Shown here one piece after another: positions 34,797-37,316 of a stretch of 64,000 nucleotides of DNA. The notes under the pieces were generated by a model. The model had not been told where the DNA came from. It saw only the letters and a program-made list of their open reading frames with translations, and did not search any database. Source of the stretch: Collinsella sp. zg1085 (lineage in GTDB: Bacteria > Actinomycetota > Coriobacteriia > Coriobacteriales > Coriobacteriaceae); assembly GCF_018889955.1 (NCBI RefSeq), contig NZ_CP076545.1, positions 1,302,001 through 1,366,000 of the forward strand. Direction: 5' to 3'. Position 1 is the stretch's first letter. Each line of letters opens with the position of its first letter. The position numbers were made by a program, and so were the translations under genes.

Positions 34797-34872
34797 GGGC
34801 GATTGGCGCAACGGTTAGCGCAGGTGCTTTACACGCACAAGGCTGGGGGTTCGAATCCCTCATCGCCCACCA
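34797..34872 (+). tRNA. tRNA-Val (anticodon UAC)
   Basis: 76 bases with CCA encoded. The acceptor GGGCGAT pairs with ATCGCCC; the anticodon arm is GTGC-TTTACAC-GCAC with anticodon TAC; the T arm holds GGTTCGAATCC. The gene has its own promoter and terminator. The bases from 34852 on are the first copy of a downstream tandem repeat. Confidence 0.95.
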
Positions 34873-34884
34873 TAGCTTTGCTTG

Positions 34885-34908
34885 AGGTTCCTACATGGAG
34901 CCTTTTTT
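34885..34908 (+). terminator. Intrinsic terminator of tRNA-Val
   Basis: AGGTTCC (34885-34891) pairs with GGAGCCT (34897-34903, one G-U pair) followed by TTTTTT. The same terminator recurs in each downstream repeat copy; in the last copy the partner is GGAACCT, restoring a full Watson-Crick stem. Confidence 0.9.
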
Positions 34909-34925
34909 GTTATGTGCTCTTATCA

Positions 34926-35047
34926 GGGGATTCGAACCCGCAAGGGCGCGAAGCTGAGAAACGTGCGTTTAGCACGTTGCCAGCGAAGCGCGCAAGCCAG
35001 CCAAAGGCTGGCGCAGCGAACGGGCGCGTATGCGCCCCCGAATCCCT
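34926..35047 (+). other. Multi-helix folded module of the repeat (copy 1)
   Basis: The module is closed by GGGGATTCG (34926-34934) pairing with CGAATCCCT (35039-35047). Inside are CCC-GCAA-GGG (GNRA loop, 34937-34946), and a long stem CGC-GAA-GCTG/CAGC-GAA-GCG with a symmetric GAA/GAA internal loop and an AACGTGC-GTTTA-GCACGTT tip (34947-34990). These are followed by GCCAGCC-AAA-GGCTGGC (34996-35012) and GGGCGC-GTAT-GCGCCC (35022-35037). The closing stem is an inverted copy of the tRNA T-arm sequence. Whether this works as RNA or as DNA hairpins is unknown. Confidence 0.75.
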
Positions 35048-35536
35048 CATCGCCCACCATAGCTTTGCTTGAGGTTCCTACATGGAGCCTTTTTTGTTAT
35101 GTGCTCTTATCAGGGGATTCGAACCCGCAAGGGCGCGAAGCTGAGAAACGTGCGTTTAGCACGTTGCCAGCGAAGCGCGCAAGCCAGCCAAAGGCTGGCG
35201 CAGCGAACGGGCGCGTATGCGCCCCCGAATCCCTCATCGCCCACCATAGCTTTGCTTGAGGTTCCTACATGGAGCCTTTTTTGTTATGTGCTCTTATCAG
35301 GGGATTCGAACCCGCAAGGGCGCGAAGCTGAGAAACGTGCGTTTAGCACGTTGCCAGCGAAGCGCGCAAGCCAGCCAAAGGCTGGCGCAGCGAACGGGCG
35401 CGCATGCGCCCCCGAATCCCTCATCGCCCACCATCGCTTTGCTTGAGGTTCCTACACGGAACCTTTTTTGTTATGTGCTCTTATCAGGGGATTTGAAGCC
35501 AGGAGGTTTGAAGCGACATCGCGCGTGGAATTTACC

Positions 35537-36947: not shown

Positions 36948-37316
36948 GGGGGCGACTGGTTTCGACACGATAGTTCTGAGAGAGGAAGCAAGTCGTGGTC
37001 TCCTCACCACGTTAAACAGGGGTACCGTCAAATTGAATTGACAATAATTCTTCTTATGAGCCTCAACTGGCTCTCGCTGCCTAAGTTATAGCGTAGCGCG
37101 TTAAACCGGGGATTTCCCCGACTCCGGGGCAACGTCATCTTAGGGGAATGCGCCTTTGCACGTAATCGGTATGGCAAAGGCTAAGCTTGAACCGGTTAGG
37201 GTGCCTTGAGCGTGTTACTGCGCGCGAGACATCTAAATCTAAACCAGTAACTGAGCTTGGAGATGCCAATCAGGGAGCTGTCGTGGACCGGAGTTCGATT
37301 CTCCGCGCCTCCACCA
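36948..37316 (+). ncRNA. ssrA: tmRNA
   Basis: 369 bases. The 5' GGGGGCG pairs with CGCCTCC at the 3' end (one G-U), the D-like region reads GACTGGTTTCGAC, the T arm is GGAGTTCGATTCTCC and CCA is encoded. The tag frame runs from about 37040 to the TAA at 37082-37084 and reads DNNSSYEPQLALAA; the resume codon GAC is my best guess. The ALAA end is the degron read by ClpXP-type proteases. tmRNA rescues stalled ribosomes and is a common integration site for mobile elements. Confidence 0.95.

Follow-up and report, generated by a model that had tools for sequence, protein, structure and literature searches.

Tandem structured modules behind tRNA-Val in Collinsella sp. zg1085 as candidate tRNA-linked repeats of a new structural form

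The first description of the tRNA-linked repeats (TLRs) of Escherichia coli dates from 1978. The published account lists 22 of them at ten loci in strain K-12, giving no known function for the tRNA-linked members (PMC8144298). Their hallmark is an exact match between the 3'-terminal 18–19 bp of the repeat and the 3' end of the tRNA or rRNA gene upstream (PMC8144298). Three members, RrA, RrB and RrF, occupy the interval from T1 to T2 in rrn operons and are produced by read-through; cuts 3 nt past the 5S RNA and 3 nt past the tail copy yield RNAs of 173 nt and 113–115 nt, and these processed rrn RNAs bind Hfq and CsrA (PMC8144298). Here we describe a tandem array of structured modules directly 3' of tRNA-Val in a 64,000-nt stretch of the genome of Collinsella sp. 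zg1085 (NZ_CP076545.1, positions 1,302,001 to 1,366,000, forward strand; the whole stretch is called the window, and coordinates below are its own).

Judged from its sequence, the module is a TLR by the published hallmark, lies outside the Rfam RtT family by model, and extends TLRs to the Coriobacteriia. We hold with moderate confidence that the array consists of TLRs of a new structural family in this class, whose read-through RNA would be freed by tRNA-end processing. We found no report of a TLR in Actinomycetota among open-licence papers. With many copies per genome, at over 20 tRNA types and at transfer-messenger RNA (tmRNA), the Coriobacteriia provide comparative data that E. coli could not give: stems that clearly covary, a loop pattern that is conserved, the same locus with and without a module, and the rule that each closing stem matches its own host's T-arm. 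The function and spread of TLRs thereby become testable.

Anatomy and fold of the array

The three modules follow one another at a spacing of 187 bp, with identities of 100%, 100% and 98%. Each unit runs in the order terminator, spacer of about 20 nt, inverted T-arm (GGGGATTCGAACCC), core (arms P2–P5) and tail (GAATCCCTCATCGCCCACCA). The array has four terminators, the last of which is followed by a degenerate inverted T-arm. The features are:

34797..34872, + strand: tRNA-Val (anticodon tac), the gene that hosts the array and whose last 20 nt (34853–34872) are the source of the repeat copies
34884..34904, + strand: intrinsic terminator hairpin of tRNA-Val, then a T run (terminator 1)
34926..34939, + strand: inverted T-arm GGGGATTCGAACCC, the reverse complement of the tRNA-Val T-arm; its first 9 nt are the 5' half of P1
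34926..35047, + strand: structured module 1 (P1–P5), 122 nt
34937..34946, + strand: P2, CCC-GCAA-GGG with a GNRA loop (helix 2 in the covariation analysis, 100% of cells paired)
34947..34990, + strand: P3, long arm with the conserved GNA/GNA internal loop, GAA/GAA here (helices 3–5 in the covariation analysis)
34991..35018, + strand: P4, arm with GCCAGCC-AAA-GGCTGGC (helices 6–7 in the covariation analysis)
35022..35037, + strand: P5, variable hairpin GGGCGC-GTAT-GCGCCC
35040..35059, + strand: tail copy 1, GAATCCCTCATCGCCCACCA, a perfect match to the final 20 nt of tRNA-Val, CCA included
35071..35091, + strand: terminator 2, identical to terminator 1
35113..35234, + strand: module 2
35227..35246, + strand: tail copy 2
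35258..35278, + strand: terminator 3
35300..35421, + strand: module 3, with P5 loop GCAT, not GTAT
35414..35433, + strand: tail copy 3
35445..35465, + strand: terminator 4
35487..35500, + strand: degenerate inverted T-arm GGGGATTTGAAGCC, which closes the array (by eye)

In each of the three units the tail agrees with the 3' end of tRNA-Val at 20 of 20 nt, and this full 20-nt copy begins with the 3' half of closing stem P1. The link to the tRNA is far stronger than the initial annotation supposed: both module ends reproduce the neighbouring tRNA, one its T-arm in inverted form and the other its tail.

Module 1 (34926–35047) folded with a minimum free energy (MFE) of -71.7 kcal/mol, compared to a mean of -46.4 (sd 3.6) for 200 shuffled sequences, none of which was as stable (z = -7.0). 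Both the MFE and the centroid structure contained P1 as a 9-bp stem (34926–34934 with 35039–35047), and all the other helices that the initial annotation had named: CCC-GCAA-GGG, the long arm, GCCAGCC-AAA-GGCTGGC and GGGCGC-GTAT-GCGCCC. The four arms it had described are present, but with the closing stem added the junction is one of five helices. Similarly, the symmetric GAA/GAA internal loop is there, but it is not the tandem GA/AG motif proposed: across 24 homologues it is a 3x3 GNA/GNA loop, in which the outer G and A of each strand are unchanged or kept in at least 90% of the sequences while the middle base is variable.

No promoter-like site was found between tRNA-Val and the module. Open frames span the repeats on both strands, but they run on through the tRNA and the terminators too. 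A protein-coding explanation of the repeats is disfavoured, as the observed substitutions compensate within stems.

tRNA linkage, matched ends and selection on structure

The genome holds exactly five modules, on which blastn and the covariance model agree: three at tRNA-Val and two at tRNA-Thr (tgt), so that all lie where TLRs do, directly 3' of a tRNA or rRNA and one to five per locus. The ends of the tRNA-Thr array, at 467 kb, are GACAGGAATTGAACCC and GATTCCTGTCGCTGGCTCCA, the T-arm and tail of tRNA-Thr, and its terminator copies are those of tRNA-Thr itself. No further tRNA gene followed by an inverted T-arm was seen among the loci inspected (30 of the 45 tRNA loci). One extra similarity, 3' of a tRNA-Glu gene, was the next tRNA-Glu gene itself.

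A covariance model, R1, built from 24 modules, matched 67 of 296 genomes in a class-wide sample: 35 of 37 Collinsella genomes, 11 of 15 in the other genera of the family, and 21 that were more distant. Ten Coriobacteriia genomes searched with lax filters gave 88 matches, up to 17 per genome. A same-strand tRNA lay upstream of 80 of these, with 21 anticodon types represented, and a tmRNA upstream of five. The module started 40–75 nt past the tRNA end in 74 of the 80, and 126–247 nt past it in the other six, at least four of which are second array units. The remaining three matches had no intact upstream RNA gene and appear to be disrupted loci; by eye, L271 and L284 carry a detached tRNA 3' tail, and at L252 the terminator is interrupted and a copy of a tRNA-Glu tail lies downstream.

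Beyond the family, a tRNA lay upstream at 27 of 30 loci examined (out of 65 matches in 15 further genomes). The cores there were widely different, and the constant frame was the inverted T-arm, a CCC-GNRA-type hairpin and the tail. Outside the Coriobacteriia there was one true case, at tRNA-Ser (L391 in genome G494; one genome, with 296 sampled from the phylum). A core-pattern search of GTDB contigs, in which the best 80 of 109 stretches were examined, gave seven further loci outside the class (L131, L139, L141, L151, L182, L190 and L201), which we took as chance because the adjoining DNA examined held no tRNA gene.

The ends of the modules follow the host RNA. Over 85 matches and 22 RNA types, tail identity was 0.857 to the module's own RNA and 0.553 to the others, with the own RNA strictly best in 72. 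For the inverted T-arm these identities were 0.866 and 0.742; the own RNA exceeded the mean of the others in 82 matches and was strictly best in 34, a smaller gap that arises because T-arms resemble one another. Copies linked to tmRNA have an inverted T-arm that is a perfect fit, and a tail that ends after its T-arm part, lacking the acceptor/CCA part.

The module is a real element under selection for structure. When 123 matches (117 distinct rows) were aligned to the covariance model, 96.0% of cells were paired compared to 84.2% in shuffled alignments, 22 of 28 pairs had changed on both sides compared to 13.1, and the covariation score was 0.320 compared to 0.117 ± 0.005. Because the sequences share ancestry and had been aligned by fitting them to the model, the shuffles overstate significance; structures slid along the alignment, a control that preserves this relatedness, scored at most 0.069. 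In addition, of 113 distinct modules 109 folded more stably as the + strand than as the - strand, and the average gain was 6.8 kcal/mol. This asymmetry, for which purine loops that stabilize just one of the strands are a sufficient explanation, argues for RNA or a single DNA strand over a duplex cruciform. The compensatory stem changes and the strand asymmetry bear out the earlier interpretation in part, as regards selection on structure, and stems lacking compensation were not what the homologues showed. A chance inverted repeat or local duplication is ruled out by the fold (z = -7.0) and the covariation.

Comparison with E. coli TLRs and a possible route to a free RNA

The Coriobacteriia modules have in common with E. 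coli TLRs a tail copy at the 3' end of the repeat, a position directly 3' of a tRNA, and tandem copies; the rrn TLRs also sit between two terminators, as these modules do. In K-12, the rttR repeats at tyrV are closed by GGGGAAGGAT and ATCCTTCCCC, an inverted T-stem/acceptor sequence paired with the tail copy. The Rfam RtT model also matches proK, whose elements run in the order tail, terminator, inverted T-stem, core, tail and terminator, while the argV, argZ and argQ spacers hold shorter relatives undetected by that model. In a hand-picked sample of E. coli tRNA operons (eight further K-12 stretches, proK included), tail copies, whole neighbouring tRNA genes aside, occurred only at proK, argV, argZ and argQ. 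The closing stem of inverted T-arm/acceptor and tail copy is shared with tyrV, proK and argVYZQ, and the module layout recurs at tyrT/V, proK and argVYZQ. The tRNA-Arg(acg) clusters at L246, L257, L280 and L301, which have a second core type (GCGAGCG...) behind their genes, are built like argVYZQ. Of 5426 RefSeq E. coli genomes, 4695 contained the RtT core and 2659 the entire proK unit, counted from a query coverage of at least 80%. By its coordinates, the record of the K-12 derivative MC4100 (match H36) seemingly lacks the proK RtT unit of MG1655 (L352).

In contrast, the core fold and sequence, the phylum, the number of copies (up to 17 matches per genome) and the additional use of tmRNA hosts set the Coriobacteriia modules apart, and their inverted T-arm is whole, where E. 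coli TLRs have mainly its 3' half. RtT RNA (RF00391) shares the layout and the hairpins CCCGAAGGG (here CCCGCAAGGG) and GCC-GCA-GGC; a tandem GA motif is reported for RtT (PMC7657543), alongside the GNA/GNA loop of the Coriobacteriia modules. CCCG(C)AAGGG and the other motifs common to both groups are only suggestive of homology. The RtT model gave no match at E values up to 10 on 34860–35520, with a positive E. coli control, and matched none of 197 Coriobacteriia genomes. Neither Collinsella-1 RNA (RF01700) nor any other Rfam family matched the module; only tRNA and tmRNA reached threshold in the window, and only tRNA on 20 homologous loci. As the RtT model does not match, we class the module as a new structural form of the TLR kind, in another phylum.

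How might such a module give rise to an RNA? We propose that in some rounds of transcription RNA polymerase passes the tRNA terminator, so that the module is transcribed; the terminator arrangement is compatible with TLR-type read-through and processing. The T-arm half and the tRNA tail would then pair, closing the module as a compact multi-arm RNA. Enzymes that trim tRNA 3' ends could cut on both sides, because the module finishes in a tRNA 3' end and is preceded, on its 5' flank, by the real one, leaving a free structured RNA of about 170 nt that could be trimmed to about 120 nt. Its amount would follow transcription of the tRNA, and would in this way be linked to growth. Release by tRNA-end processing is the most likely course; recognition by tRNA enzymes, which the initial annotation had raised as a possibility, and a product of about 120 nt have a published precedent in E. 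coli RrA, RrB and RrF only (PMC8144298). A looser precedent is 3'ETS-leuZ, the spacer small RNA of the glyW-cysT-leuZ operon that is annotated in K-12, where the trailer of a tRNA transcript became a functional RNA (PMC8144298); it differs in having no structured module, and no tail copy was found 3' of leuZ. The tandem copies, and the clean presence or absence of whole units, would arise because the long direct repeats of tail and terminator recombine.

Several observations weigh against a read-through RNA with a function. Modules occur at only 2 of the 45 tRNA genes of this genome, 2 of 37 Collinsella genomes have none, and among 30 tRNA-Thr (tgt) loci, scored by eye, 9 have a module, 2 have remnants and 19 are empty; the modules thus look dispensable. 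The tmRNA-linked tails, without an acceptor/CCA part, imply that the element can sometimes do without a complete tRNA 3' end. Selection on single-stranded DNA would likewise yield covariation and strand asymmetry. Finally, a starvation claim for E. coli tyrT was withdrawn (PMC8144298).

A broader proposal, which we think rather unlikely, is that TLRs are widespread, addressed RNA elements whose closing stem copies the T-arm of the host tRNA or tmRNA and is remade for each gene, with one RNA serving as both 3'-end decoy and T-arm antisense. If so, addressed TLRs would tie terminator read-through to the fate of the host tRNA, and the host-matched closing stem would be the element's way of choosing new tRNA genes.

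Alternative explanations and mobile elements

It is possible, if less than probable, that the module is a selfish repeat, a small DNA hitch-hiker that targets the T-arm of tRNA and tmRNA genes, with any RNA a by-product and the structure kept because a single-stranded hairpin form is moved by an enzyme or copied by template switching. The many target genes, tandem copies and remnants would suit such an element, as would the patchiness of the E. coli proK unit noted above, and tail and terminator form direct repeats around the core, like a long target duplication. So would clean presence and absence: L326 (filled) and L325 (empty) have common flanks and differ by one unit with its tail and terminator copy. 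However, recombination between the repeats accounts for presence and absence equally well, and the L326/L325 difference fits gain or loss by this route, although the first arrival of a core at a new tRNA is not explained by it. A mover would, moreover, need to remake both ends for every new tRNA, and no mobilizing enzyme was found in a search for Y1 transposase (PF01797) in the genome of the window, G032 and G005. REP/REPIN sequences with their RAYT are also dispensable, palindromic intergenic repeats with presence/absence turnover, and in these respects resemble the modules. The modules differ in their strict tRNA/tmRNA linkage, their tRNA-matched ends, and their occurrence in genomes that encode no Y1 transposase: PF01797 was found in five of eight genomes, and was absent from that of the window, from G032 (12 module matches) and from G005 (three).

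Quite unlikely, in our view, is a maturation switch, in which the inverted T-arm of the read-through RNA would capture the T-arm of its own tRNA, and the tail copy the 5' strand of the acceptor, trapping the tRNA unless termination or processing came in time. The transcript 34797–35060 is predicted to fold at -127.2 kcal/mol with the switch pairing, compared to about -117 kcal/mol for the tRNA (-30.4) and downstream part (-86.6) folded apart, and the inverted T-arm pairs at -30.3 kcal/mol with the tRNA end compared to -15.0 with the tail copy. Competition with tRNA folding, as the initial annotation had suggested, thus appears in silico as a thermodynamic preference: at 66 of 73 distinct loci the MFE structure of the read-through transcript paired the inverted T-arm with the tRNA T-arm (mean -137.3 compared to -126.9). 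However, these are equilibrium energies for unmodified RNA, without tertiary contacts or kinetics, and any inverted copy would produce the same result. When three E. coli loci were folded, tyrV, proK and argV, the last kept its cloverleaf. We hold the switch as a rival only, because the tRNA would have folded well ahead of synthesis of the inverted T-arm, and because the calculation includes neither modifications nor tertiary contacts.

It is extremely improbable that the extra tRNA 3' ends are spare attachment sites, serving or stemming from site-specific integration at tRNA genes: L020 and L284 do have a tyrosine-recombinase-like frame (by eye) beside a detached tRNA 3' tail and then the module, and L271 has a detached tail too, but in all three the break is at the tRNA itself and not at the tail copy, and integration leaves the covarying multi-arm core unexplained.

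At L020 and L284 the frame ends adjoin the detached tail of a tRNA-Ser, and mobile elements appear to have split the tRNA gene from the module. At L017/L146 a module without a nearby tRNA adjoins an IS110-type transposase-like frame (by eye), the only IS110 link seen; the bridge RNA of IS110 is encoded in the non-coding end of the element and pairs with target and donor. A phage origin was rejected, as in the first 20 of 24 matches to the tRNA together with the first unit, the likeness to phage tRNA-Val genes was confined to the tRNA part. Rows of another palindromic repeat, of about 65–70 nt, lie 3' of tRNA-Thr in C. aerofaciens-type genomes (L338–L345), with ends resembling TCTCGATCTGTAACA and TGTTACAGATCGAGAC.

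The window also contains a tmRNA (36948–37316). The frame that matches the tag of relatives reads AR-stop-TGDFPDSGATSS, its third tag codon being TAA, whereas the other Collinsella tmRNAs compared have the tag ARQPGDFPDTGATS(F/Y/C); ARAGORN assigns another, odd tag, GMAKAKLEPVRVP. From its sequence, the tag may be shortened to two residues.
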